A stretch of DNA of 21,825 nt from a virus: IMG/VR virus record IMGVR_UViG_3300032047_001627, positions 1-21,825 of that record. One strand, written 5' to 3'. The position numbers were made by a program, and so were the translations under genes. This document shows positions 1 through 21,794 of the stretch, one piece after another. Each line of letters opens with the position of its first letter. Position 1 is the stretch's first letter. The notes below the pieces were generated by a model. The model was not told the DNA's origin. It ran no database searches and saw only the letters and a list, made by a program, of their open reading frames with translations.

Positions 1-135
1 CACTGTCTATCCATATCTATACATATACGTACATGAAGGGGGTACCCCAAGCGGGGGGTGGGGTGCTGTGCTCACGTGGCGGACATCAATTCGCGCAGGC
101 GCGCGCACGAACCACTCTTTCCGCGCGGGCACGTA

Positions 136-160
136 AAATATAGATCTCCGATCTATATTT
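136..160. repeat. Hairpin 1: perfect 11-bp stem, TCC loop
   Basis: AAATATAGATC (136-146) pairs without error with GATCTATATTT (150-160) around a 3-base loop TCC (147-149). Its loop-proximal part TATAGATC/GATCTATA is shared with hairpins 2 and 3. No T-tract follows, so it is not a typical intrinsic terminator. Confidence 0.9.
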
Positions 161-187
161 CTGCTGGCTGGCTGGCTGGGGTTGGAC

Positions 188-233
188 TGGAATATATATT
201 TATAGATCTACGATCTATAAATAATATATTCCA
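188..233. repeat. Hairpin 2: 21-bp stem, one bulge, TAC loop
   Basis: Positions 188-208 pair with 212-233 around the 3-base loop TAC (209-211). The stem has 21 pairs and one extra base (A224). It shares the TATAGATC/GATCTATA core with hairpins 1 and 3 but has its own AT-rich outer arms, and these are still complementary to each other. Confidence 0.9.
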
Positions 234-235
234 AC

Positions 236-284
236 TTGTTGGTTGTTTATTATAGATCTCCGATCTATAATAAACAACCAACAA
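236..284. repeat. Hairpin 3: perfect 23-bp stem, TCC loop
   Basis: Positions 236-258 and 262-284 are perfectly complementary over 23 bp, with loop TCC at 259-261. The outer arm (TTGTTGGTTG) differs completely from hairpins 1 and 2, while the inner 8 bp match theirs. A perfect 23-bp stem with a 3-base loop is very unlikely by chance. Confidence 0.95.
243..271 (+). promoter_or_regulatory. Possible promoter inside hairpin 3
   Basis: TATAAT at 266-271 matches the bacterial -10 consensus exactly. TTGTTT at 243-248 lies 17 bases upstream and matches 3 of 6 bases of the -35 box. Transcription would start near 278 and read through hairpins 4 and 5 into the first gene. Because the site is inside a palindrome, the same -10 hexamer also occurs on the other strand. 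The AT-rich palindrome could produce this match by chance. Confidence 0.25.
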
Positions 285-293
285 AGGTTTCTG

Positions 294-334
294 AATATTG
301 TATTTCATAATCGGAGATTATGAAATACAATATT
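294..334. repeat. Hairpin 4: perfect 19-bp stem, GGA loop
   Basis: Positions 294-312 pair perfectly with 316-334 around loop GGA (313-315). The stem sequence is unrelated to hairpins 1-3 except for AT-rich content and a loop that is the complement of TCC read backwards. Spacer to the next hairpin is 7 bases. Confidence 0.93.
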
Positions 335-341
335 TGAGATC

Positions 342-403
342 TTGGGGGCTCTTTTTATCTGAACCCCTCACGAAGTGAGGGTTCAGATAAAAAGAGACCC
401 CAA
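342..403. repeat. Hairpin 5: 28-bp stem, GAA loop
   Basis: Positions 342-371 pair with 375-403 around loop GAA (372-374). There are 28 pairs, one bulged C (364) and one G/A mismatch (348/397). It ends 14 bases before the Shine-Dalgarno sequence of the first gene. No T-run follows the stem, so a role as an mRNA 5' structure, an RNase III site or a DNA signal is at least as likely as termination. Confidence 0.93.
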
Positions 404-6898: not shown

Positions 6899-7627
6899 AT
6901 GGCTTTTAAACCAATGAGTCCGCAAGAGCGGGCAAGCATAGAAGCACAAGTGCTGATAAAGGCAGGCGCTGAACTCGCAGTTGCAGAAATTGCAAACGGC
7001 GATGAAGGCGTTGCGGTAACGATGGCGATAGATAATGCCAAAGCGTTAGCGCAAGCAATGCCAGCACTTAAGCAGGAACTGGAAGGTTCCATAGTTGCGA
7101 CAACAACTGCTACCGCCATGAGGGCGATCACCGATACTTTTGGTGAAGTGGAAGCAGTTGCTCCGCAACAACAAGCACAAGCACCTGTTAATGCAGGTGG
7201 GGCAAGACCGTCAATGTATATTGACGATAGCGAGTACTCTTTAGTACATAGGCTTTTCCTGTTTGAGAAACAAGCGGGCATAGCATATGGGTCTAAAGAC
7301 TCATTCTTTATGGATAACCAAGCCATACGGAAATTGTTCCAAGACGGACAGCGCCAATTCCCCGCCGATTACTGGGCTGAATCAATGCGCGGCAAAGACA
7401 TACCTATAACCAAGAACGGTAAATGCGGGCTTGGAGACTTTAGAGTCAAGAAGGGTGTGACTGCCGCAGAGGACGGTACATTTTATGTAGCGCAAGGAGA
7501 AGGCACTTATGGCGTTGCCAATAAGAGCGGATACTTTGGTGCTTTAGTTAAGCACACTCCGTTCAACTGGGCTGAACGTCCGCAACCTTTAGACCCACAG
7601 GGTTGGTTAGTTGGTGCTGATGGTTAA
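6899..7627 (+). CDS. Unknown 242-residue replication-cassette protein
   Basis: AGGAGGA (6884-6890) stands before the ATG. Residues 1-60 are Ala-rich and helical. Residues 75-105 form a Gln/Ala/Pro-rich linker. Residues 105-242 hold a folded part with aromatic residues and glycines (SKDSFFMDNQAIRKLF, then KCGLGDFRVKKG, then GYFGALVKHTPFNW). I do not recognise it. Its place between a nuclease and a helicase-like ATPase is where phages often keep a single-strand binding or annealing protein. That is suggested only by context; the usual acidic tail of SSB proteins is missing. Its end overlaps the next start by 8 bases. Confidence 0.7.
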   Translation: MAFKPMSPQERASIEAQVLIKAGAELAVAEIANGDEGVAVTMAIDNAKALAQAMPALKQELEGSIVATTTATAMRAITDTFGEVEAVAPQQQAQAPVNAGGARPSMYIDDSEYSLVHRLFLFEKQAGIAYGSKDSFFMDNQAIRKLFQDGQRQFPADYWAESMRGKDIPITKNGKCGLGDFRVKKGVTAAEDGTFYVAQGEGTYGVANKSGYFGALVKHTPFNWAERPQPLDPQGWLVGADG

Positions 7628-8639
7628 GCGGCTCTCTCCAGAGGCTGCCCAAGCACTTGTTGGTAAGGGGGGGGCAACCCCCTCTGCCAGTAAGAAAGAA
7701 GAGGGGATATCATCTACAGACCTAAAGCGTTTGTTCACTCCCAAATCTGAGCAAGTGAAGCGTATGCGACATGACCTCAGATCAGGTGGAGAATGGACAT
7801 TCGGCGTTAGGGCCTTTGATGAGGCAACCTTAGGCGGGGCGCGGCCAGGCCAGTTAATTACGTTAATTGGTAAAACGCATACAGGTAAGACGATGATGGC
7901 TATGAACATGGTTGCTAAAAACCGAGGACATAGGACATTGTGGGTAAGCCCAGACGAAACTGAAACAATGTTTTGGGGGCGTTACGCTGCTATGCGTTTA
8001 GAAATAAGTCAGAAAGATTGGATAAGTAGGCTCATTCGTGAAGATGAACAAGCGTGGATAAGAACAGGCGAGATCATTGGAAGCGAAACGAACCTACATT
8101 TTGAATCTACTGGCATGTCCGTAGACGACTTAGATAAGGCAATGCGTATTGCGGCGAGCGAACTCTGGAACGGAGAACGCCCGCACGTTCTCGTATACGA
8201 TTATCTTGAACTCATTCGTGGAGGAGGATCTGGCGATGCCGCCAGCGTCCAATCCAAGATTGAATCATTCAAGCAACTCGTATCCGACTGGCGTGTCATC
8301 GGTGTTGTTCTTCACCAATCAGGTAGAGGATCAGGCACTAGAGGACAAGCAGGCGGCATTGACTCTGGTAGGTTCGCATCTACAAGTGAAAGCCATTTCG
8401 TGTTTGAAACATGGAGGCGTTGGGACGACACCAATTTGGAAGAAGAGGTGCGTCACCACTACATTGACGAAGTTAGTGTAGGCTTGTGGAAGAACAAAGC
8501 AGGCGAAGGCGAAAAAGCAGAAGTAAACTTAACTATACACCCTAGTGGCAGGCTCTTAGAGCCAGGAGTTACGTGGGAGCAGTTAAGTTTTAAAGATAAC
8601 GAGGTGGAAGATTATGCCGAGTATGAAGAAACTGTTTGA
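7620..8639 (+). CDS. RecA-fold helicase-like ATPase (DnaB/RadA-type core)
   Basis: I start it at ATG 7620, inside the end of the previous gene; a TTG at 7611 is the alternative. Counting from this ATG, Walker A is GKTHTGKT at residues 84-91, and Walker B is HVLVYDYLEL with D194. A later GVVLHQSGRG segment corresponds to the His/Gln sensor motif of RecA-fold helicases. The domain is preceded by about 60 residues with no DnaB-type N-terminal domain, and GV-x-x-FDEATLGGARPGQL is the typical entry to a RecA core. This suggests a stand-alone phage replicative helicase or a KaiC/RadA-like ATPase. It is followed immediately by a primase, which supports a helicase role at the fork. Confidence 0.82.
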   Translation: MVKRLSPEAAQALVGKGGATPSASKKEEGISSTDLKRLFTPKSEQVKRMRHDLRSGGEWTFGVRAFDEATLGGARPGQLITLIGKTHTGKTMMAMNMVAKNRGHRTLWVSPDETETMFWGRYAAMRLEISQKDWISRLIREDEQAWIRTGEIIGSETNLHFESTGMSVDDLDKAMRIAASELWNGERPHVLVYDYLELIRGGGSGDAASVQSKIESFKQLVSDWRVIGVVLHQSGRGSGTRGQAGGIDSGRFASTSESHFVFETWRRWDDTNLEEEVRHHYIDEVSVGLWKNKAGEGEKAEVNLTIHPSGRLLEPGVTWEQLSFKDNEVEDYAEYEETV

Positions 8640-9627
8640 GGGCTTTCCCTATGCTTATGGGACAGATGAAGGCGGTTGCCGTTGGGCAGACGTCACTGAT
8701 TCCCTGTTTGAGCGCCACTTAGTCGGTGAAGAGATGATTGGGATATACCCAATGGTCTACGACCCAGAAGAAGAGGCGTCGCCAGCAGGTTGCACAGCAT
8801 GGAAAATGGACGACGGACGACGGATTTACGAATCCGTTAATCCCGACCTATGGAAATGTTTGTGGGGCGCTATAGACATAGACGAGGGAGAGGACTCAAT
8901 AGTCCTTGCTCAAAATGCTACAGCACTTTTGAGAGCCTTGAATATAAACGCTTGGCCTGAACTGTCACGCAGTAAGGGTTGTCACGTTTGGGTTTTCTCT
9001 GCTGACTGGGTTAAGGCTTCTATTATGCGTAGAGCCTTAATGGCTGTCATGCAAAAAGGAGACATACCGTATGATGCGGTCTACCCTAAGCAAGACACCC
9101 TAGACGGACCCCCAGGAAATTACATGCGGCTACCATACGGAGGTAAGAGTCCACTTGGTAGGCAAGTAATCTTAGATGAGGAAGATAAGCCAATGTCTGT
9201 GTCTAACTTTGTGTATGAGGCTGAACATAATCGTACAGCAGTTGAATACATAGAAGAAGCCGCAACCTTATGGGAACCACCAGTATCCAAACTCCCACCA
9301 AATCGTGAATACTCTAAAGAGCCTTTAATGGCAGTAGATGGAACACGCTTACGAGGAGTTGCAAAACGAATGTGGGAAGATGGACCCGTCGCCTACTATA
9401 CTGCCGCTGAAGGCGCAGGTAGAGGTAGACACGGTTTTCTTAACAGGTTCGCAAGAGCAATGTGGGAAGCGGGATACCAAACCAATGACATAATGACGTG
9501 GACTAAAGACCTAGACTCACGCTTATCTAATTGGTGGCCCGAAGGATCAAAGTTCATAGGCAGACCAGATTGTGACAAGCAAATTGAAAAACTCGTCAGT
9601 AGCGCCCACCAACAAGCCAGAAGGTGA
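8614..9627 (+). CDS. Archaeo-eukaryotic-type primase (AEP superfamily)
   Basis: The ATG overlaps the ATPase gene by 26 bases, with GGTGGAAG before it. Three AEP signatures are present in order: the metal-binding D88-x-D90 in GAIDIDEGED, SKGCHVWVF (S120-K121-G122-C123-H124), and GNYMRLPYGGK (168-178). The C-terminal part (about residues 240-337) is helical, with GRHGFLNRFARAMWEAG and a regular RPDCDKQIEKLV end, and resembles the PriCT-type domains that follow such primases. The enzyme would make primers for phage replication, together with the ATPase in front. No DNA polymerase gene is in the window. A primase-polymerase activity cannot be excluded. Confidence 0.83.
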   Translation: MPSMKKLFEGFPYAYGTDEGGCRWADVTDSLFERHLVGEEMIGIYPMVYDPEEEASPAGCTAWKMDDGRRIYESVNPDLWKCLWGAIDIDEGEDSIVLAQNATALLRALNINAWPELSRSKGCHVWVFSADWVKASIMRRALMAVMQKGDIPYDAVYPKQDTLDGPPGNYMRLPYGGKSPLGRQVILDEEDKPMSVSNFVYEAEHNRTAVEYIEEAATLWEPPVSKLPPNREYSKEPLMAVDGTRLRGVAKRMWEDGPVAYYTAAEGAGRGRHGFLNRFARAMWEAGYQTNDIMTWTKDLDSRLSNWWPEGSKFIGRPDCDKQIEKLVSSAHQQARR

Positions 9628-9982
9628 ATATTCCTTTGTCGTGCAAGGCCGTCCCCGAACCAAGGGGCGGCCACGCATGTCAAAGGGAGGAAGAGTCTAC
9701 ACACCGCAAGAAACTGTACGCGCTGAAAAAGAGTACATAACTGCGGTAGGTGACAACCCGCCTGTGTTTGAAGGCCCTGTCTCACTTGAACTAACGTTCA
9801 TGGAAGATGCCACCCTAGTTACGATTAAGCCAGTAGAAACTTGGGACACCCCTTTAAGGGGTGACCTAGACAACTACTGCAAACTAGCCTTAGATGGCAT
9901 ACAACGTGCAGGAGTCTTAAAAGACGACAGACAGGTAGTGATACTTTCTGCTGTGAAGATACGGTCAGGAGAAAACGAATGA
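9572..9982 (+). CDS. RusA-like Holliday junction resolvase
   Basis: The protein reads VVQGRPRTKGRPRMSKGGRV near its start and GDLDNYCKLALDGIQRAGVL, then DDRQV, near its end. These are the RusA signatures: G-x-P-x-x-K-x-R-x-R, then the acidic D98-x-D100 and D118-D119 that bind Mg2+. RusA enzymes work as dimers and cut Holliday junctions or branched replication DNA before packaging. No ATG lies upstream of the conserved core, so translation must begin at a GTG (9572, used here) or TTG (9584), both within the end of the primase gene (56 or 44 bases of overlap). No clear ribosome site precedes either, so coupling is likely. The gene ends in an ATGA overlap with the next one. Confidence 0.85.
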   Translation: MTSKLKNSSVAPTNKPEGEYSFVVQGRPRTKGRPRMSKGGRVYTPQETVRAEKEYITAVGDNPPVFEGPVSLELTFMEDATLVTIKPVETWDTPLRGDLDNYCKLALDGIQRAGVLKDDRQVVILSAVKIRSGENE

Positions 9983-10410
9983 GTTTCAAAGATCAATCTT
10001 TCAAACAGCGCTTTCAAACGATGGGAGACATAGCAGAGCGTGCCTATGAGGAAACAACGACAGTTAAGTTCTGTCGTTTCGGACTCAACCGCCCGCCAAT
10101 AAACATGTCTATGTTGCCCTTAGAACTAAGGCACACACCAGACTACCTAACCTCTTACGGCCTTGTAGAAGTACAAGGTTTTGGAGATGACCAAACGCTT
10201 AAAGTTAAATTAGACAAACTAAAAGCACTTGAGTGGTGGAACAAGGTTCACCCAGTTTCTTTATTCGTATACGACTCAAAGCACAATAGAACTTGCTCCT
10301 TGAGTATGAGCGACGTAAAGAAACTTGCACGCAAAGCAACAGTTGAAATGTTTCCTGAAGGTAAAAGATACTACGCCATACCAGCAGTGCTAATATGGCC
10401 TGATGTCTAG
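9979..10410 (+). CDS. Putative PD-(D/E)XK-like nuclease with E-x-Q motif
   Basis: The start overlaps the RusA-like gene (ATGA). The 143-residue protein begins with a helix (SFKQRFQTMGDIAERAYEE, E20), continues through FGLNRPPI, and then gives HTPDYLTSYGLVEVQGFG followed by a KVKLDKLKALEWW helix. The order E20, D55, E64-x-Q66 and then lysines on a helix resembles the core of PD-(D/E)XK nucleases, with Gln in place of the usual Lys. I recall similar proteins in other phages as conserved hypotheticals. Next to a resolvase, a second branched-DNA or end-processing nuclease would make sense. The nuclease assignment is inference. Confidence 0.6.
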   Translation: MSFKDQSFKQRFQTMGDIAERAYEETTTVKFCRFGLNRPPINMSMLPLELRHTPDYLTSYGLVEVQGFGDDQTLKVKLDKLKALEWWNKVHPVSLFVYDSKHNRTCSLSMSDVKKLARKATVEMFPEGKRYYAIPAVLIWPDV

Positions 10411-10777
10411 GAAAGAATTTTTACGTGACCCTATAGAGTACGAGTGGCTGTTTGATAAAGGATCAACAAGTTCACCTAAACAACCAGCCACCGTACTGCA
10501 GGTTCTTCAAGAGTCTGCACCACATGCGGTCATGCCCATTTCAGCAGAAGAACGCTTCCACCTAAGAGAACTAATAATAGACACATTAGAAACTCTCACA
10601 GATATGGAAATTTGGATAATAAACGCATTGCTATTTGAACGCATGAGTTTAAGAAGAGCAGGGTTCATACTAGGTATACCTAAAACAACCCTTGCTCGTA
10701 AGCGAGATGCAATCCTTAAAGGACTGCAAGAAAAATTATTACAACACGAGTACATAAAGGAGTACTTAAATGACTGA
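10403..10777 (+). CDS. Sigma-region-4-like helix-turn-helix protein
   Basis: The ATG overlaps the previous gene by 8 bases. In this 124-residue protein, residues 50-112 form a sigma-region-4-like domain: LETLTDMEIWIINALLFERM, then SLRRAGFILGIPKTTLARKR (the helix-turn-helix, about 81-104) and a C-terminal LKGLQEKL helix. The phrase S-x-x-x-A-G-x-x-L-G-I-P-K-T-T is typical of sigma-70-family region 4 and related regulators. Residues 1-45 are not recognisable as sigma region 2, so it is not a full sigma factor. It may direct host RNA polymerase to later promoters or be a DNA-binding regulator. Its position near the end of the early operon would suit a middle-to-late switch. Confidence 0.65.
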   Translation: MSRKEFLRDPIEYEWLFDKGSTSSPKQPATVLQVLQESAPHAVMPISAEERFHLRELIIDTLETLTDMEIWIINALLFERMSLRRAGFILGIPKTTLARKRDAILKGLQEKLLQHEYIKEYLND

Positions 10778-11832: not shown

Positions 11833-12551
11833 GTTACCTTTCCTACTACACCATCTTGCTTGATAGCGAAATTTTTCTGAAACTTTTTAACAGCATTCCT
11901 AGTATTACGGCCAAATACACCGTCTACGGATAAATTTAACCTTAGACGAGTATTTAGCCGCTCTTGTAGCATCGTCACGTATTTCCCCTTTGACCGCATT
12001 CTTAGCGGTTTCTTTGCGAGAGAATCTCCGATTGCTAATACATACTTAGTGATAGCGTCCCAATCTATCTCACTAGGGTTTCCCTCATCAACACCCATTC
12101 CCCCTTTTACCCACGCAGCAAGATTATCGCTAGGGCAATAGGTGGCTTTAAAGTCTCTATGACACTTGATGTATAAATGCTCACCATACTTTTTCCGTGT
12201 AGCCTCAACTACAACCAGTATGGCTTCCTTAGCCTTATCAGTAATTGCGTCACCATCTCCGATGTAAGATATAGCAATAGTATTATGGTTGTGCCCCTTC
12301 GTGGCCCCTCCAACAGTCCACCCGCGACCCTCAAATATTTGCCCATCTTCAGATATTAGCCAGTTGTACGCGATAGTTCTCCAACCACGACCTTCCACAT
12401 GGTACCTATCATGCCCCTGAATCTGTTTATAGGGGTCTTTAGGGCTACCAGTAGTGTGATGGAACACGATGCCCTTCATACGCCTTCTAAACGCCACTAA
12501 AGGCTTTCCAGTATCTATAGCGCCCCACTCTTCTCTGCTTATATATTTCAT
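11808..12551 (-). CDS. Endolysin: amidase with peptidoglycan-binding domain
   Basis: The 247-residue protein has an N-terminal Amidase_2/PGRP domain (about 1-150). The signatures are FHHTTGSP with zinc ligand H31, AYNWLISEDG with Y62, and IKCHRDFKATYCPSD with H131 and C139. The C-terminal 65 residues form a PG_binding_1 domain (KYVTMLQERLNTRL, then VDGVFGRNTRNAVKKFQ, then DGVVGKVTWKHL). Such N-acetylmuramoyl-L-alanine amidases cut the link between sugar and peptide in the cell wall to release phage. There is no signal peptide, so export through a holin is expected; the small membrane gene after it fits that. The start overlaps the giant gene by four bases (ATGA). Confidence 0.92.
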   Translation of the reverse strand: MKYISREEWGAIDTGKPLVAFRRRMKGIVFHHTTGSPKDPYKQIQGHDRYHVEGRGWRTIAYNWLISEDGQIFEGRGWTVGGATKGHNHNTIAISYIGDGDAITDKAKEAILVVVEATRKKYGEHLYIKCHRDFKATYCPSDNLAAWVKGGMGVDEGNPSEIDWDAITKYVLAIGDSLAKKPLRMRSKGKYVTMLQERLNTRLRLNLSVDGVFGRNTRNAVKKFQKNFAIKQDGVVGKVTWKHLWTT

Positions 12552-15500
12552 CTTAACCCTTCTATCTCTGAATCTATTCTATACATGTCTCTAAGGTCTT
12601 GTAAATCTCTTCTTTGCTCTTGAAGCCTGTAACGCCTCTGACGTGCTTGCTCTTCAAGAGAGTTGTGCCTTAAACCGATCCCAAGCAACCAACTCATTAC
12701 AGAAGCAAGCCTATTTTCCTGACCTCTTTTAGTGTCTGGCATAACCCTACTTAAAGATTGCAAAGGCGGGAACAAACTCCTCATACTATTAAGGTACGAA
12801 TCTTTCATCACCCAATTTCCATCTGGCGTTTTACGTGCAATGTTATCTCCAGTTATCAGAGAAATAGGTTGCATCAAAAGGTCATTGTTGAATGGAAAAG
12901 GAACCTGTTTAAAGTCGCCCTTGTAACTATAACCTTGGAAAATATTCCTATTCATGGTCATCTCAATAGGCGCTTTTATCAGTGGTGACATCATGTTTCC
13001 TATAGGTTGCAAAGCCGCACCCACACGCTCTAAAGGACTCATATCTGGTTGAGTCATAGGGTTTATTGTTTCCATAAGGACCCTAGGAGGCAAGTCAAGA
13101 GTAAGCCAGCCATGTTGGCCATCAGCGCCAAACATGTTTACAGGGATACCGCCCCCAGTTTGTATCCACTCAGGCACAGAATCAAGATCCTGCATGTCTC
13201 CTTGAAGAGAATCTTCCATTCTGTTCATTGCATATACGTATCTATGCATTCTGGCAGGGTTCCTAAATGACTGTTCTAAAACACGTGGAATCGCAAAACG
13301 AGTCCACGTGTAAAACGGTATGACTTTTTTAACAACTTTACGCTCAAACGCAGACAGGTCTTGGTAGTTGAATTGGAACTTCCAAACCTTTTCCATACCT
13401 GTAGAAGCAGTACCGCCTTTATTAACTATGTCGTCAAACATTAGGGTTCCACGCAGTATGTCCTCTATTTGACCTACGTTAAATTTTTGCGCCTTTTCTA
13501 AGAGGATAAACTGAGAAGAAGCAGGGTTTGCTCTCTGTAAGTTTATATCTTTCCCTCCGACACGGACAACTCCCCTGCCTGCGTCTGCAACACGAAACTC
13601 TGTTCCAGCCTGTCCATGTCCAGCCGCACCAGTGGAGTCAATAATTCTTGCAACCTCAACTTCGTAAGGGTCAGTGTGTTTAACTAAATGGTTTAACCAT
13701 TTCTGCTTCTTAGGACCCAAAGAACCTTTACGTATCAGTTCATTCTGTAAACGGACGACTGTACGCGCTGTAACATACTTACCATAAGAGGTAACGTTCA
13801 CCCCTGCAAGGTAGTTCATAAATACACCACCTTGAAGGTTACGTGAATAAAATCCTGGGGACAATATCGCGTAACCCTTCCATACGTTCTGTACTTTATC
13901 GTAATACTCTAAGAACTTACTTCCACCACCATAGTTGCGTTCCATGTCGGTTAAAGAATCTACAAGACTTCTAGGCCCTTGTGACTGCAGCCCAATAGCC
14001 CTAAACCCTTGAATCATTACACGATCAATGGCCTCACCAGTGGCCTTCCTGTGGGCTAAATCTTTAAATACAAACTTGTTGCCCCTGATAGCGTTAAGAT
14101 CTTCTTTAGTGTTAGCCGCAACAATCTTTGTCGCTAAATCAGCATCTTCTTTAACCATTATCTGTATAGCAGACTCAACGTCCTTATATGCTTGAAATAA
14201 CTCCTCACCAGATCCCTTAAAGTCTGGACTCATCTTATTCAACGCCTCAACGGCTTTACGCATTTCCCCATTAAGTAACTCTAATTCAGCAAGTTCCTCA
14301 ACAGCAATCCCCTTATCGGTCCTTAAATTATAGGCGTCCACTTGACTCTGTAAAGTCCACTCATCTGCTCTTTGCTTTACAAACCAATCTTGAGCAAGTT
14401 GTTCTCGTATCTCAGCGGCCTCATCTACCGTCCGTAATAGGTCGTCGTATAAGTCATCTTGACTGCGCTGTGCCCTCTTTAAAATCTCTATAGACTGACG
14501 AACCTGATTAGCATTAGTTCCCAGATCACTTGCCGAGAGTAAATATTGGTTATTCACACGCAAAGGAGTAGATTCCTTTCCGAGGTTCATAGACATCATA
14601 AACCTTATAGTGTCGTCCATAGCCTTCTCTTCCCAAGCAGGCAAAATAGACTTAGTGAAAGATTCACCAGTAGAAACGCTTCTCACTTTACCAGCAAGAG
14701 GGTTAGTTAAATTGACACTAAAGTTGTAGGGGCGAGCGTATGCGTCAGGATTCCTTGCTAAATTATTAGCCCAACCTGTACCAACATAACCTTCTCGCCC
14801 TAAACCTGTATGGTAAGACTCCCAAAGTCTTGCCAAAAGGTGTGCTTCACGATCCATAGGATCTTCCGCTATTGACCTGCTGGTCCTCTTCAAAAAGGCA
14901 TCAGCGTCATCAGCGTGACCCCAAGTAGCCGACTTAGCCGAACGTGTAGATCTGTACTGTATATGTAGACCAGCCATGAAATCATTCACTACATCTCTGG
15001 CATCTCTCTGAGCGAGGGAATAGGCTCTGTTTTGTCCGCCTAGTGTTCGTAGGCCGTTAAAGTTTTTAACTTCAAAATCAAAACCAGCGGGTTTAGCAAG
15101 TTCACGTAGGTAGGCTTCCCTGTCAGCGAAATCATCTACAAGTCTACTGACCTCATCTAATGTCATTGTTTGCCTCTTGTACATTACCCATTCAAGAATG
15201 CTTTGATAAGCGTCATTGTCTACGGAACCTAGTTCAAATTTTGCCCTTAAGTGTGGGGTTTGAAAAACCTTCTCCACAACAGACATCGTTTCAACAGAAT
15301 CCCTCACTGCATGATTAACATATTTAATCATGTCAGGTCCACCATATTTACTATCTTGCATGGAACCCTTACCACCACGAAGCGCTCTATTCACAATTCC
15401 AGAATCAGCAATATGAGAACGCATAGGATACATGTACCATTCGCCTAGATTCAAAGCGGCGTCATCATATGCTTCAAAAATATTTTTAGCACTTAATTTC

Positions 15501-18500
15501 AAGGGAGTCATGTAGGCAAGAATCTCAGACCTTAATTGAGGTCCAGCCTTACCCAACATATCTAAAGACATCAAAGCCTGAACGCCCCTCAAATGATCCA
15601 TGCCTGTCCAAGAATCTATAGCACCATAAGGGCTTGTGAAAAATTCTGTTGCTATCTGATCTAAAATCTCAGCCTGTTGAACAGGAGTTAAAGCAGGGTC
15701 AAGAGACTTAGACAGAAGATGATGCGCTTCTTGATTCATTCCATAAAGTTTTATACTCGCCAAATCATTAGGAAGGGCAATCTCTACATCTGCCGTAGGT
15801 ACATTCTGAGCCTTCTGCCAAGCCATAGGGTGTAACGCAAAGTCACTACTTGCCTCGTCTATCCAAGGCATCAAATTAGACGTAGACCTAGGAGCACCAA
15901 GATACACATTACCAACAGGGGTTCCCCACACAGGGTTTGAATGAAATCCAGCAGTTAAAGGTACACCAAACATCTCTGTTTGCTGCGTAGGCGAAAGAGC
16001 CTCAAAGTTTATCGGCATTCCTGTAGATGAAACATCTCTAGGGTTTTGAATAGCGGGAAGAACTCTTGCTCTTCCGTTATACAACATTGGATCAAACAAG
16101 GCATCATCTACCAAGCCTTGATGCCCTTTAAGACCCCTAATAACATAGATAAGGGTTCCGTCTTTGGAAGCCTTTTCTATGGCATCAGGAGCCATACCAA
16201 GATTGAATGCGGCACGCATAGGTAACTGCTCTTCAGGTATGTAAGTTCCACCAAAATTCTCAACAAGCGCCCTAGATCTTGCCTCTAACCACGTCGTGAA
16301 ATAGGCACGTTGCTCTATGGTCGCATCAGGTAAGTAAATTTCAACAAATCTAGCCCACCCACCATGTGAAGCGCGTACATCATTGATCTTACGTATTTGA
16401 GAACGAACTAAATCTTCTACATTAGTTCCTTCCGAACGAAGCATAGGTTGCGCCACACCTGACAAACGTTTCTGACTGTTCAAACCAGCAGTAAAGCCTG
16501 CCGCCTCTTCACCAGCATCATCACCGAACAATAAATAATTTACTTCCTGCGGTCTTGACGCATCGTAATCACCCCTTAAGGCTCTAACTGTTCCACCCAA
16601 CTCTTTCCTAGGAAGCCCATACTCAAAAGGAGTAACACCAGCATCAATTATCTCATCATTAACGCCTAAGAAATCAAACGTTTCCCCTTGATTCACACGT
16701 ACGACAGCGCCGTCACCCTCACGTATCACAATATTAGAGAAGTCCTCTCCTGCAGCGCCCCAGTTGCCTGTTAAAAGATCACCAAGTAATCCTTTCTGAT
16801 ATTCAACTGCCACAGGATTCAACGGAAGCAGATCGCTTCGCGCTCCTTCCGCTATGATCTCAGGGTTTATTAACCTAGGTTCCCCATTCATGCTCATAAC
16901 AATCGTGTCATTTATCTGTGCTTGATTAAGAGATGTGCCTTCAACCCACTCTTTGATAACAAAAACATTTCCTAAATCATCTGTAGAGGTGTAAGAAATA
17001 GGTGCTTCAGCGTCAAAAGCCCTATATATGCGAGAAGAGAGAACGTCAGCGTTCGCTCTTTGAGCAGTAGGGTACTGCTTTACAAAATATCTCTTACCAT
17101 TAGGGCCAACCATTTGTTGCCCACGTTGTGAACCGTATTCAAAAATTTCTCCCACAACAGACAGTTCCTGTATTGTGGGTTGCTGAAATATTCTATGGTC
17201 AGCATCTAAAGCAGCAGCAACACTGTGCTTAAACTTCGTCATCTGGACAATATCACCTATTGTCAAAACCATTGGTTCTTCGTTGATAGAGGTCCCAAGA
17301 ACTGCTTGCTGGATCTCCGTACTTGCAGCAGGGTTATCAGCCAACTCTGCCTGCTTGAGCATTATACGTTGGTTAGCCTCCTCGGCGTAACTGGCTAAAA
17401 ATCTATCTAAATCGCCTACATCTTCTATAACGTTCCTGATAGGTGGATCTAATGGGATACTATTTCTTGCTTGCACAGTGAACATCTCTGACCAACTCTG
17501 GTTGCCCTCTATGACAACACCAAACTCGTTGCCAAACCTGCGTTTCAACTGTGGAGTCATGTCCAACATGCTTGTAAAAAGATCATCTAAGACCTTCGTA
17601 ACGGCTTTTTCTTGGTTGGTTATTAATTCTAAAACCTTAAGGACCTGATCGGGACTAGCCGCTCTGGCTATCCCATCAGCCCCAACTAAAAGATCTTTAT
17701 AGTTGTTAAGTAGTGCATACTCTAAAATTCCGTCATCTTGTAAATTCTTTAAAATAACGTCATAAGTTTCTAGAACGTCCTTCATCATCATTATGTCTAG
17801 GTCGTCTAAGCCTCTTGCGGACATAGATTCAAACATTCTTTCAGGGTCAAAATCATTCGCCACATTCTTCCAGAAAGTCATACCATCTGAAATTTGCTCT
17901 ATACTGCCGTGCAAATAAATCTGATTAAAAGCCTCCCTGTATTCCATAGCCGCATTTTTGGCGGCTTGTATGCTTCCAAAAGCACTAGTTAATTGGTCCT
18001 CTATGAATCTTGTATTCTTGACAGCATCTTCTACCTCCATGTATTTCGTGTAAAACAAGCCGTCCCTGAAATGTTTATCAGGAGTTCCTAGAACTGCATC
18101 ATTCAACCTAGTCTTAAGTGCATCTACTTCACCCTGTAATTGCTTTGCTCTCTGTACAGACCTGCCTGCGGCTGCTCTCACCACACCTTCCGCTTCGTCT
18201 ATTTGTAGTTGCCTTGCCGCTATGTCTGCCTCTATCTGAGATATTTCCATTTCCTTCGCTATGATTGCTTGCTCCCTGTCCATAACGAACTCATTAACTT
18301 CTTCAGCAAATTTCACATTGTTTAAATACAATTCATCAATTTGCCTGATCTGTGCCTCTAACTCAACAATTTCAGCACGTATAATATCTTTGGCTGCATC
18401 ATCAGCATGTACCCCTTGAGATAATTTAACCTCAAGACGTCCTATCAGTTCTTGCCTTTCCTTAAGGTTGTCGTATATGCGTCTAGAAGCAGCACGCTCC

Positions 18501-21352
18501 ACAGTGGTAGGAACACCATTCTTATACAACCATCTATGCTGAAGTACCCCAGCACCCTGCAACTGGCTTTCTAACCATACCTGACCTGTTCTATGTGCAA
18601 GCATGTCTGCGTATGCTGAAAAGGACTTGGATATGCTTTCTTCAAACATATGGTGCCCTACTTTAGCCTCGTCCATAATGGAGTTAATTTGGGCGACAAT
18701 GCTTTGTCCTTCAACAAAGTCTTTGCCTCCGAAACTCATGCGTGCAGGAGTATTCGCAGTATCCATAGCAGATTCAAAAGCAACGCGAACATTGAAAGGA
18801 AGGTCTGCGTCCGCCCAAGGTGCGTCCCAGTTGTAACCATCTGGTAAATCAAATTTCCCTTGTTGCTCTGCGTTTAAATTATTCCACCAATCCTTCGCAC
18901 GGTTCTTATACTCATTAGGAGTTAAATACTTACGCCCATGTTCAGTGCCTGAGCGCTCCATATCAGGAGCGCCTCTACCCTGCCTAAAATTAAACTTGCG
19001 AGCATTTCTTAACTCTTGTGCAAATTCTGGCGTTATAGAACGGTGACCAAAGTCATCTACAAAGTTTAAAAACTGTACACCAGACTGTGCTTCCGCCATC
19101 ATGTGTGCTTCATTTAGTGCCGAACGTAAACCATCTTTTAAATGCATTAAACCTAAATCATCTAAAAGTTTGTCCGCCTCTAAGTCACCTTCTAGTGCTC
19201 GGAAAAACGTTACCTCCGCATCTGCGCGAGAGAGGGAACCATCAGCGCCAGAGATTGCTTCATCTACGGCCAATCCAAGTCTTTGCCTAAATGCAGTTCC
19301 AAGGTACTTTTCCATTTCCCCGCTTTGCAGGTATCTTTGCAACATGACCCTAGCGTGCTGTTGTCCCCAAGGATTCTTTACGTCCTTAACTTTCATCTTA
19401 AGTAATTTTTTTGTACCCCCTACAAAACCAGTTGCTCTTCTCCATGCAGATCCTGGGATATCTGCAAAAATCTTATGGAACTGCATAGGTATAAGCCTTA
19501 TTAGTTCGTCTGCCCTGCTGTTAGGTAGACCTGTTGCAAACTTGAAACCTGTTTGATGCTGTATAGGGGTTTTACCTACCCTGTATCTAACATTATTTAA
19601 AGTTTTGCGACCCCACTCACCAGTCATGGGTATTTTCATACCCCATTGAGTACCAAACGGGGTTGAACCCGCTAGATCCTGAGCAGAAACTAAAGGTATA
19701 TGCTGTTTCCCAACGTTTATATTGTCAGGTAAAAATCTGGTGAGAATCCCGCTACGAGGAGTTCTCACCTGAGAAATCAAACCCTCTGCTTCAATTCTCC
19801 AAATATCATCTTGAGCCGCTCTAGCAGCATCATCTAAAGAATTGTATGCCTCAGTACCGAAAATCTTTTTCTGGCCTTCTTGGTAACTACGAATCCAACC
19901 TGCCCTATGTTGAGCAGCAGTCATACCGTTTCTATCAAGCCCAAACCTATGCATGTATGTGGCTACAACACGTGCTGTATCCGCAGACAGGGCGTTAATA
20001 CCCTTCTCCACTACCCTTCCGCCGTCCATAATTTTTACAATATCTGTAAAGAGGTCATCTGGACCAGCGCTCGCACGCACAGTGCTTGTTACATCATCAA
20101 AAGAGAAAAGAACACGCTTGCCAGTGGCATCAACTGCATTAAGGAAAATGTTGTCGGTTTGAGCAACACCCATGTTGGCTAACCGCTGAGTCCCCCTAGC
20201 AGTTACATTAATGCCTCCTTGTGTAGCCAAGTCCTCAACTACCTCTTCAAAAATTTCCCTTACGCGACCAGCGGCCTGCTTTACAGAGGCCTCTGATGTT
20301 ATATCAATACCTTCCTCTACTAGTCTCCCCATTACTCCATCAGCCAGTTCTCTGGTGCTTCTCTCAATAGATTCTTCGGCTAATTCTTGCCCTGACCTTC
20401 TAGCCACACCCCTGAAAACATTCTCGCCCATTTCCTCAATAATGCTTCGCGTAACAGTCATTGCAACAGTCTCGCCGCTTGCACCTATACCGCTTCTTAA
20501 AGCCTTCGCTACACCCTGAGTTACTCCGAAGCCACCAAGCCAATTTATAGGGTCTAAAATCAAATCAGGGGGTAATGCTAACGCCCCGCTAGTAGAAGGC
20601 CCTATAGACCAACCAGTGCCAAGCGCATTATCCCAATCAAACCAATGTTTGGTACCCCAATGGCTTTCTGGGTTTTGCAACCAGTTAGCGTCCTCAAACA
20701 AGCGACCAAAAGTATAAACTTGATAAAAGTTTTCTGGATCTAATTCTTCAACACTTGTCGTAATCGGATTCTCACCTTGAACAATGCTTTCCCAAGGTAA
20801 AGCGCGACCAAGAACAACAGTGTTCAAAAACATTACAGGATTCAAAGTAGTCAGATATTTTGTCCTGTCGTAAAAATCTGTAAGTTCTTCTTTTCCAGCC
20901 TTGAAATAATTGCTAAAAGAATCTAAACCTTCACCAGAGGCAAGATCAGAACCTAATCTCCACAGATTAGTAATGCCTCCGTCAATGAGTTTGGCTGTAG
21001 CGGCCACAGCAGAGAGCGGTCTACCTAATGTCACTAAAGCGCGACCAATTAGACCACCTATGCGGCTTTGCCAAAAGCCGCCTTCGTTTTGTTGATCTTG
21101 AAAATCTTGCCTTGCCTGAGTATCTACCCAAGGAACAGTGTCATAATTATCTAACGAACCTCTAATTTTAGAAGGATCGTAACGATTAATTACTTGATCT
21201 ATGTTAGTTAAATTGTTTTCGCCTACACCAAAAGTATCTCTTAAGATATCTGTGGTGGATCGTTGATTCCCAGAAGGTCTTTCAACTTCAGGCGGCTTTG
21301 AAAAACTAGGAGGTTTTACTGTATCCAGAAGTTGTTGTCTGTCAATCGCCAT
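12548..21352 (-). CDS. Giant polyvalent virion-associated protein (2934 residues)
   Basis: I chose the ATG at 21352, one base after the preceding stop; a TTG at 21379 would add nine residues. Residue numbers count from this ATG. The protein has no signal peptide. A kinase-like domain near residues 1400-1570 shows K1425 in YFVKQY, a hinge near VIKEWVEG, then GNWGAAGEDFSNIVI and RVNQGETF. Two long coiled coils lie near 954-1085 and 2282-2422. The C-terminal part holds GYAILSPGFYSRNLQGG (about 2490-2507) and VIPFYTWTRFAIPRVLEQ (about 2675-2692), phrases I recognise from giant phage proteins of the large polyvalent type. These are thought to be packed in the virion and injected. I looked for T7/N4-type RNA polymerase motifs and found none. 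Confidence 0.75.
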   Translation of the reverse strand: MAIDRQQLLDTVKPPSFSKPPEVERPSGNQRSTTDILRDTFGVGENNLTNIDQVINRYDPSKIRGSLDNYDTVPWVDTQARQDFQDQQNEGGFWQSRIGGLIGRALVTLGRPLSAVAATAKLIDGGITNLWRLGSDLASGEGLDSFSNYFKAGKEELTDFYDRTKYLTTLNPVMFLNTVVLGRALPWESIVQGENPITTSVEELDPENFYQVYTFGRLFEDANWLQNPESHWGTKHWFDWDNALGTGWSIGPSTSGALALPPDLILDPINWLGGFGVTQGVAKALRSGIGASGETVAMTVTRSIIEEMGENVFRGVARRSGQELAEESIERSTRELADGVMGRLVEEGIDITSEASVKQAAGRVREIFEEVVEDLATQGGINVTARGTQRLANMGVAQTDNIFLNAVDATGKRVLFSFDDVTSTVRASAGPDDLFTDIVKIMDGGRVVEKGINALSADTARVVATYMHRFGLDRNGMTAAQHRAGWIRSYQEGQKKIFGTEAYNSLDDAARAAQDDIWRIEAEGLISQVRTPRSGILTRFLPDNINVGKQHIPLVSAQDLAGSTPFGTQWGMKIPMTGEWGRKTLNNVRYRVGKTPIQHQTGFKFATGLPNSRADELIRLIPMQFHKIFADIPGSAWRRATGFVGGTKKLLKMKVKDVKNPWGQQHARVMLQRYLQSGEMEKYLGTAFRQRLGLAVDEAISGADGSLSRADAEVTFFRALEGDLEADKLLDDLGLMHLKDGLRSALNEAHMMAEAQSGVQFLNFVDDFGHRSITPEFAQELRNARKFNFRQGRGAPDMERSGTEHGRKYLTPNEYKNRAKDWWNNLNAEQQGKFDLPDGYNWDAPWADADLPFNVRVAFESAMDTANTPARMSFGGKDFVEGQSIVAQINSIMDEAKVGHHMFEESISKSFSAYADMLAHRTGQVWLESQLQGAGVLQHRWLYKNGVPTTVERAASRRIYDNLKERQELIGRLEVKLSQGVHADDAAKDIIRAEIVELEAQIRQIDELYLNNVKFAEEVNEFVMDREQAIIAKEMEISQIEADIAARQLQIDEAEGVVRAAAGRSVQRAKQLQGEVDALKTRLNDAVLGTPDKHFRDGLFYTKYMEVEDAVKNTRFIEDQLTSAFGSIQAAKNAAMEYREAFNQIYLHGSIEQISDGMTFWKNVANDFDPERMFESMSARGLDDLDIMMMKDVLETYDVILKNLQDDGILEYALLNNYKDLLVGADGIARAASPDQVLKVLELITNQEKAVTKVLDDLFTSMLDMTPQLKRRFGNEFGVVIEGNQSWSEMFTVQARNSIPLDPPIRNVIEDVGDLDRFLASYAEEANQRIMLKQAELADNPAASTEIQQAVLGTSINEEPMVLTIGDIVQMTKFKHSVAAALDADHRIFQQPTIQELSVVGEIFEYGSQRGQQMVGPNGKRYFVKQYPTAQRANADVLSSRIYRAFDAEAPISYTSTDDLGNVFVIKEWVEGTSLNQAQINDTIVMSMNGEPRLINPEIIAEGARSDLLPLNPVAVEYQKGLLGDLLTGNWGAAGEDFSNIVIREGDGAVVRVNQGETFDFLGVNDEIIDAGVTPFEYGLPRKELGGTVRALRGDYDASRPQEVNYLLFGDDAGEEAAGFTAGLNSQKRLSGVAQPMLRSEGTNVEDLVRSQIRKINDVRASHGGWARFVEIYLPDATIEQRAYFTTWLEARSRALVENFGGTYIPEEQLPMRAAFNLGMAPDAIEKASKDGTLIYVIRGLKGHQGLVDDALFDPMLYNGRARVLPAIQNPRDVSSTGMPINFEALSPTQQTEMFGVPLTAGFHSNPVWGTPVGNVYLGAPRSTSNLMPWIDEASSDFALHPMAWQKAQNVPTADVEIALPNDLASIKLYGMNQEAHHLLSKSLDPALTPVQQAEILDQIATEFFTSPYGAIDSWTGMDHLRGVQALMSLDMLGKAGPQLRSEILAYMTPLKLSAKNIFEAYDDAALNLGEWYMYPMRSHIADSGIVNRALRGGKGSMQDSKYGGPDMIKYVNHAVRDSVETMSVVEKVFQTPHLRAKFELGSVDNDAYQSILEWVMYKRQTMTLDEVSRLVDDFADREAYLRELAKPAGFDFEVKNFNGLRTLGGQNRAYSLAQRDARDVVNDFMAGLHIQYRSTRSAKSATWGHADDADAFLKRTSRSIAEDPMDREAHLLARLWESYHTGLGREGYVGTGWANNLARNPDAYARPYNFSVNLTNPLAGKVRSVSTGESFTKSILPAWEEKAMDDTIRFMMSMNLGKESTPLRVNNQYLLSASDLGTNANQVRQSIEILKRAQRSQDDLYDDLLRTVDEAAEIREQLAQDWFVKQRADEWTLQSQVDAYNLRTDKGIAVEELAELELLNGEMRKAVEALNKMSPDFKGSGEELFQAYKDVESAIQIMVKEDADLATKIVAANTKEDLNAIRGNKFVFKDLAHRKATGEAIDRVMIQGFRAIGLQSQGPRSLVDSLTDMERNYGGGSKFLEYYDKVQNVWKGYAILSPGFYSRNLQGGVFMNYLAGVNVTSYGKYVTARTVVRLQNELIRKGSLGPKKQKWLNHLVKHTDPYEVEVARIIDSTGAAGHGQAGTEFRVADAGRGVVRVGGKDINLQRANPASSQFILLEKAQKFNVGQIEDILRGTLMFDDIVNKGGTASTGMEKVWKFQFNYQDLSAFERKVVKKVIPFYTWTRFAIPRVLEQSFRNPARMHRYVYAMNRMEDSLQGDMQDLDSVPEWIQTGGGIPVNMFGADGQHGWLTLDLPPRVLMETINPMTQPDMSPLERVGAALQPIGNMMSPLIKAPIEMTMNRNIFQGYSYKGDFKQVPFPFNNDLLMQPISLITGDNIARKTPDGNWVMKDSYLNSMRSLFPPLQSLSRVMPDTKRGQENRLASVMSWLLGIGLRHNSLEEQARQRRYRLQEQRRDLQDLRDMYRIDSEIEGLR

Positions 21353-21353
21353 G

Positions 21354-21794
21354 TCATTGTCTAAATTGTGGACCAGCAAGTATGCCTAGATCCGCTGCAG
21401 ATACTGCAGGGCCAGTCTCCTGCCCTCTCATAATATAGTCATACGTATCATAACTAGTGTACGGATCTCCGTGCCTGTTAGGACTCTTGTAAACTGTACC
21501 TTCAAATGGTGGTTGTTCTTGAGATCTAATATCTACTTCATCTACCTGAGTATCTGTAAGAGTGTGATAAACATTCCATGTTGTTGCAACAGCGGTTACT
21601 TCAGACCATTCGTCAGTCTTGCCAACATCTTCACCATAAGAATTTACATCTAAGTATGTATTTTCAATTTGGAGAGCGTTAGCGGTATAAATTGCCATTT
21701 GTTCATCAATGGCTGCTTCGTCATAGAACCAAAATTCTTCTCCGTTAGGTGCCTGCCACCAAGCCCCCTGTTGGTCATCTGTAAAACCAGCCAT
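21354..21794 (-). CDS. Unknown acidic 146-residue late protein, start uncertain
   Basis: The product starts MAGFTDDQQGAWWQAPNGEE and is rich in Asp, Glu, Tyr and Trp, with no membrane segment and no recognised family. The composition resembles small virion accessory proteins, but that is impression only. No stop separates the ATG from the window edge (21825) in this frame, so the true start may be further right. Another frame has a stop at 21805-21807, which may be the end of an upstream gene and would favour the ATG at 21794. The gene ends one base before the giant gene's ATG, so both are probably translated together. Confidence 0.62.
   Translation of the reverse strand: MAGFTDDQQGAWWQAPNGEEFWFYDEAAIDEQMAIYTANALQIENTYLDVNSYGEDVGKTDEWSEVTAVATTWNVYHTLTDTQVDEVDIRSQEQPPFEGTVYKSPNRHGDPYTSYDTYDYIMRGQETGPAVSAADLGILAGPQFRQ

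Follow-up and report, generated by a model that had tools for sequence, protein, structure and literature searches.

A recurrent array of near-perfect hairpins before the first early gene of uncultured phages maintains its structure while its sequence changes

The row of long hairpins that precedes the first early gene of a linear IMG/VR virus record (IMGVR_UViG_3300032047_001627, positions 1 to 21,825; the whole stretch of 21,825 nt is called the window here) is real, recurrent among relatives, and unusual, and it is the structure that is maintained and not the sequence. Judged from comparisons with relatives, the array looks like a selected structure rather than an accident. The reading that we tentatively prefer, while rating it somewhat below an even chance, is that the array forms a structured leader at the 5' end of the first early transcript, where selection acts on it as RNA, although it is made and kept perfect by template switching in the DNA.

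The first-pass annotation had reported five long consecutive hairpins at 136 to 403, each with a 3-base loop, and these are present far above chance expectation. With a stem of at least 10 bp and a loop of 3 to 5 nt, four perfect hairpins were counted in positions 100 to 450, whereas 500 dinucleotide shuffles averaged 0.004. Folding gave the array a z score of -16.9 as RNA and -17.7 as DNA (the ViennaRNA DNA parameters carry no triloop bonus), and it bore out the description of hairpins 1, 3, and 4 as perfect and of hairpins 2 and 5 as interrupted by a bulge or a mismatch. The extent given for the array holds for these five but is too short, as hairpins run on through gene 1 (430 to 774) to about position 870. 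The remark that this is no normal terminator arrangement was also sound: no intrinsic terminator (a G/C-rich stem followed by a T-run) was found in positions 1 to 900. The three roles that the annotation suggested, a processed RNA, a cruciform-forming DNA signal for replication or packaging, and a protein recognition array, all stay candidates. An Rfam scan of the window returned no family at gathering score, a tRNA scan was empty, and a DNA search of the phage collection gave no match. The features of the region are as follows.

1-24, + strand: promoter-like element CACTGTCTATCCATATCTATACAT, occurring once in the window; consensus AACGCACTGtc.ATggaTATCTATACATA
42-66, + strand: G/C-rich hairpin, folded, close to where the early transcript is expected to begin
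136-160: hairpin 1, 11 bp, perfect, loop TCC
163-179, + strand: (TGGC)n repeat next to hairpin 1; L094, L097, L104, and L121 have this GCCA/TGGC repeat flanking their arrays too
188-233: hairpin 2, 21 bp with one bulged A, loop TAC
236-284: hairpin 3, 23 bp, perfect, loop TCC
294-334: hairpin 4, 19 bp, perfect, loop GGA
342-403: hairpin 5, about 28 bp, interrupted by one mismatch and one offset, loop GAA
412-428, + strand: mini-hairpin TTTGC-TAAGGAG-GCAAA, with the Shine-Dalgarno sequence in its loop
430-774, + strand: gene 1, the first early gene, encoding a 114-aa protein; its coding DNA itself contains hairpins
451-474: hairpin in gene 1, 10 bp, loop TAAA
502-520: hairpin in gene 1, 8 bp, loop TAC
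544-562: hairpin in gene 1, 8 bp, loop TAC
683-701: hairpin in gene 1, 8 bp, loop AAG
744-769: hairpin at the end of gene 1, 11 bp, loop TAAA
785-812: hairpin after gene 1, 12 bp, loop TTCG
807-852: second hairpin after gene 1, 21-nt arms, 86% complementary, overlapping the hairpin at 785-812

Farther into the early region, two near-identical 20-bp palindromes with the 4-nt loop TTTA lie between early genes at 1562 to 1603 and 2714 to 2755; a single compensated change, C-G to T-A, separates them.

The array has the conserved promoter-like element upstream of it and the ribosome site of gene 1 downstream, with late genes running leftward and early genes running rightward around it and GC skew following the coding direction. 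The motif TATCTATACAT or a near variant stands at this position in 66 distinct sequences (the single site of the window is at position 14 of the + strand), and many relatives have a C-run/G-run hairpin after the element; under a strict test, a C/G hairpin lies within 75 nt in 25 of the 66. No sigma-70 promoter was called at the conserved element, whose promoter role is putative. Just before the element, L121 and L104 have a hairpin with a T-run behind it (CCCCCACAGGGGGTTCTTTTTTT), oriented in the early direction and resembling an insulating terminator.

A second contig, L085, overlaps window positions 1 to 349 (its own positions 1 to 348) at 99.7% identity, and the sole difference is the bulge of hairpin 2: the bulged A is absent from L085, leaving a perfect 21-bp stem. 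Among the contigs searched, L085 is the only carrier of the core TATAGATCTNCGATCTATA besides the window. Beyond the array it contains terminase, portal, and capsid genes, and because it runs on into the terminase genes, the array is internal, lying where the gene directions diverge in a podovirus-like marine phage. The overlap comprises exactly one 349-bp end of each contig, an arrangement that a direct terminal repeat would produce, but this reading is not favored, since the long relatives have no common ends; the terminase lies at varied contig positions in them. Conserved direct repeats like TTTACTNAGTACC flank a hairpin before the terminase genes at about 400 to 460 in L085 and on the late side of L095, L104, and L121, and in L085, TTTACT-17-TATACT was called promoter-like and is a candidate late promoter.

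Relatives were gathered with one helicase query and three terminase queries, each of which contributed up to 80, for some 200 in total. They are uncultured contigs, apparently mostly marine; one lies inside a MAG named Acidimicrobiaceae TMED189 and one inside a MAG named Euryarchaeota. Queries of viral contigs with the gene 1 and DUF932 proteins found no relatives, a pattern search with the core of L094 matched only L094, and MW202803, a distant relative (54% terminase), has neither motif nor array. Among the genomes gathered, nine, counting the window, have strong arrays before gene 1 and were used (the window, L087, L094, L097, L104, L121, L244, L231, and L252; the contigs of L244 and L252 end before gene 1). 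Such arrays are patchy in the clade, other relatives having shorter or imperfect hairpins. The 450 nt before gene 1 folded better than shuffles in all of the 22 loci except L137, with sense folding z scores from -3.6 to -25 in those 21 (shuffles of the leaders were the sole baseline). The density of strong hairpins is 3.9 per kb in the leaders, 0.97 per kb in downstream early DNA, and 0.03 per kb in late genes.

The first-pass annotation had proposed that its view would fail if related genomes lacked the stems or if their arms varied without keeping complementarity. The observation withstood this check: relatives have stems of different sequence at the corresponding position, and changes in the stems of alignable hairpins are mostly compensated, although some relatives have only weak hairpins or none. 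L152 and L159 share 93% identity; two of their hairpins within the coding sequence of gene 1 together contain four stem pairs that have changed on both sides, and none is broken. Across the leader and gene 1 of two locus pairs at 7 to 8% divergence, uncompensated changes affect 0 to 2% of stem sites versus 7 to 9% of other sites (P values from 2e-3 to 3e-6); for L095 and L119, at 13% divergence, the corresponding figures are 7 to 8% and 18 to 19%. The ten alignable hairpins of L104 and L244 show no uncompensated pairs, and six of their loops have changed, two of them by exact inversion (TAC/GTA and TTTA/TAAA). The last two hairpins of this pair have been replaced by unrelated hairpins of similar size and were read separately, as they inflate the uncompensated counts when aligned. 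L121 and L238 differ by six changes, none in stems, which alone is not significant. These compensatory changes are those of relatives; the array of the window itself is comparable only with that of the near-identical L085. Template switching is known to act on DNA hairpins, homogenizing their arms and inverting their spacers (PMC8794818, PMC8604942), and the occasional exact inversion of loops is a signature of this process.

Stem lengths have a peak: among stems of at least 12 bp, 33 of 58 measure 16 to 18 bp and few measure 13 bp. The nine arrays contain 1,310 Watson-Crick pairs, with 19 of 1,329 pairs mismatched, including 4 G-T. G-U pairs are thus nearly absent, which counts against selection as RNA, because stems selected as RNA usually tolerate them. 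There is no clear strand preference in the loops. GNA triloops make up 26 of 44 in leaders versus 3 of 20 in late genes (P = 9e-4), and TNNA tetraloops make up 20 of 30 versus 1 of 24 (P = 1e-6), the late-gene background being taken from stems of at least 8 bp. When leader stems reach at least 14 bp, 12 of 16 triloops are GNA and 12 of 15 tetraloops are TNNA, and all five loops of the window are GNA when read on one strand; two of the array genomes, L231 and L252, depart from the pattern and prefer ANNT-like loops. TNNA loops are compact in DNA. The unusual stability of GNA-type triloops in DNA is supported by work on phage N4 and Streptomyces (PMC4496689, PMC4513846). That the loops are mostly of these DNA-stable kinds, and not GNRA or UUCG, was likewise counted against an RNA role. 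However, template switching works on DNA hairpins, so these DNA-like traits could reflect how the stems originate while selection acts on the RNA.

Other observations point toward an RNA leader. In the clade, 47 of 141 early genes have a Shine-Dalgarno sequence in a hairpin loop, where 9.9 would be expected, as do 4 of 93 late genes. These hairpins have short perfect stems of wholly variable sequence and loops of 6 to 9 nt, and because a Shine-Dalgarno sequence held in a loop matters only in RNA, they support the leader reading. GGA in a hexaloop resembles CsrA-type sites, which we take as a lead only. The DNA of gene 1 also folds far better than shuffles. Its products form one family of small proteins, recognizable as such by the C-terminal part; the model for the window has a helical C-terminal domain (pLDDT 83) with generic fold matches only. 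Weak fold matches to ribosomal protein bS20 recur (rmsd 1.9, E values of 0.4 and above) in a common three-helix arrangement; kinship with bS20 has no sequence support, an approximate E. coli bS20 query giving no match.

According to the leader reading, transcription would start just downstream of the TATCTATACAT element, and the array is presumably part of the transcript, which would present the G/C hairpin near its 5' end, then the hairpin row, and then the mini-hairpin with the gene 1 Shine-Dalgarno sequence in its loop. Selection would preserve the paired stems, commonly of 16 to 18 bp, while template switching during DNA replication would create stems, restore perfect Watson-Crick pairing, and sometimes invert loops. 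The RNA structure may shield or regulate the early mRNA. Position, recurrence, pairing kept despite sequence change, the length peak, and loop inversion are direct observations, and in favor of this reading the hairpins lie on the transcript side of the promoter-like element across relatives with different sequences. Against it stand the missing sigma-70 call at the element, the patchiness of strong arrays, and the lack of a clear strand preference in the loops. As in structured mRNA 5' leaders, a promoter-like element precedes the hairpins and a ribosome site follows them, but the array differs from such leaders in its tandem perfect hairpins, gauged length, near-total Watson-Crick pairing, and lack of conserved sequence.

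The main competing explanation, a real possibility to which we nonetheless give less credence, is that the palindromes act as DNA, with hairpins or cruciforms extruding from the divergent control region and forming an origin or a single-strand priming array that would serve the primase and helicase of the phage. The product of 8614 to 9627 is an archaeo-eukaryotic-type (AEP) primase with a PrimPol fold, closest to CAPP PrimPol (E value of 1e-14, Z of 22); that of 7611 to 8639 is a DnaB-like helicase, and that of 9572 to 9982 is a RusA-like resolvase. All three belong to the same early region, and no family-A DNA polymerase was found in a search whose control worked. The setting is reminiscent of plasmid RSF1010, in which the AEP primase RepB' recognizes the DNA hairpin ssiA and a replicative helicase is encoded nearby (PMC4434180), but RSF1010 has one ssi site (ssiA or ssiB) per strand where the phages have many hairpins, and the phage primase is nearer CAPP PrimPol than RepB' (Z of 22 versus 8). 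The excess of GNA and TNNA loops in leaders over late genes, the GNA loops of the window on one strand, the near absence of G-U pairs, the lack of clear strand bias, and the loop inversions all suit a DNA element, as does the change of coding direction and GC skew at the array, although the skew merely tracks coding direction and the DNA-type loops may also stem from a template-switch mutation process. A further point against it is that the hairpins keep to the early-transcript side and enter gene 1 and the early intergenic gaps, neither of which an origin needs. A more specific proposal, which we consider doubtful as a whole, is that length-gauged hairpins of 16 to 18 bp with GNA or TNNA loops extrude in replicating phage DNA and are recognized by structure and not by sequence, the readers being replication or recombination proteins of the phage and the array an undescribed kind of origin or control element. 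Our choice of a selected RNA leader over a DNA-level element is a tentative preference.

Mutation without selection is improbable as a full account. In this view template switching makes hairpins everywhere and they survive only in unconstrained sequence. Loop inversions, perfect arms, and the complete exchange of two hairpins seen when L104 is compared with L244 speak for it, as do the constrained late coding regions, which are nearly free of hairpins (0.03 per kb); the perfect arms, multibase compensatory changes, and inverted spacers are indeed those of template-switch hairpins (PMC8794818, PMC8604942). However, stems change less than the surrounding sequence, the peak at 16 to 18 bp with few 13-bp stems is not a decaying distribution, and the hairpins are concentrated in one leader, recurring at one place across large divergence with only 19 of 1,329 pairs mismatched in nine arrays. 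The comparison with N4-type promoters, read by a giant virion RNA polymerase, is attractive at first sight because these are also DNA-encoded hairpins with 3-base loops before early genes, of the GNA kind (the P2 loop is GGA with a sheared G:A pair [PMC4496689]), and the window has GGA loops and encodes a 2,943-aa late protein. Yet N4 stems are 5 to 7 bp with conserved sequence and a T7-like polymerase, whereas stems here span 11 to 28 bp in the window and are mostly 16 to 18 bp, the sequence around them is free to vary, and the giant protein has neither the motif-C HD(S/A) signature nor a PDB or Pfam match as an RNA polymerase, making this reading very unlikely. A PF00940 search gave no match in 17, but its control also matched nowhere. 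The giant protein itself (12548 to 21379, - strand) has no recognized domains, and tblastn found distant relatives in Manatee Spring phages and Cellulosimicrobium phage DS1. A small protein encoded at 10403 to 10777 weakly matches an RNA polymerase sigma factor family and is a possible late regulator. Streptomyces telomeres also contain several tightly packed palindromes, with GCA loops closed by sheared G:A pairs (PMC4513846), but the array is internal to the genome map, with the L085 terminase beyond it, and its sequence is not conserved. An assembly or amplification artifact, which the first-pass annotation had allowed for, is scarcely credible: two contigs do end in or near the array (the window at position 1 and L085 in hairpin 5), but identical or orthologous arrays occur in separate assemblies (window and L085, 99.7% over 349 bp; L121 and L238, 98.9% over about 1.9 kb; L104 and L244), and this recurrence contradicts it. 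Telomere, terminator, Rfam family, N4-type promoter, and artifact were thus all left without support.

Overall, numerous uncultured marine phages keep a near-perfect hairpin array of preferred stem length at one place while swapping its sequence. Such arrays offer a test bed for how long perfect stems originate and are kept up, by template switching or by selection, and for DNA or RNA structure alone as a control signal in phages.
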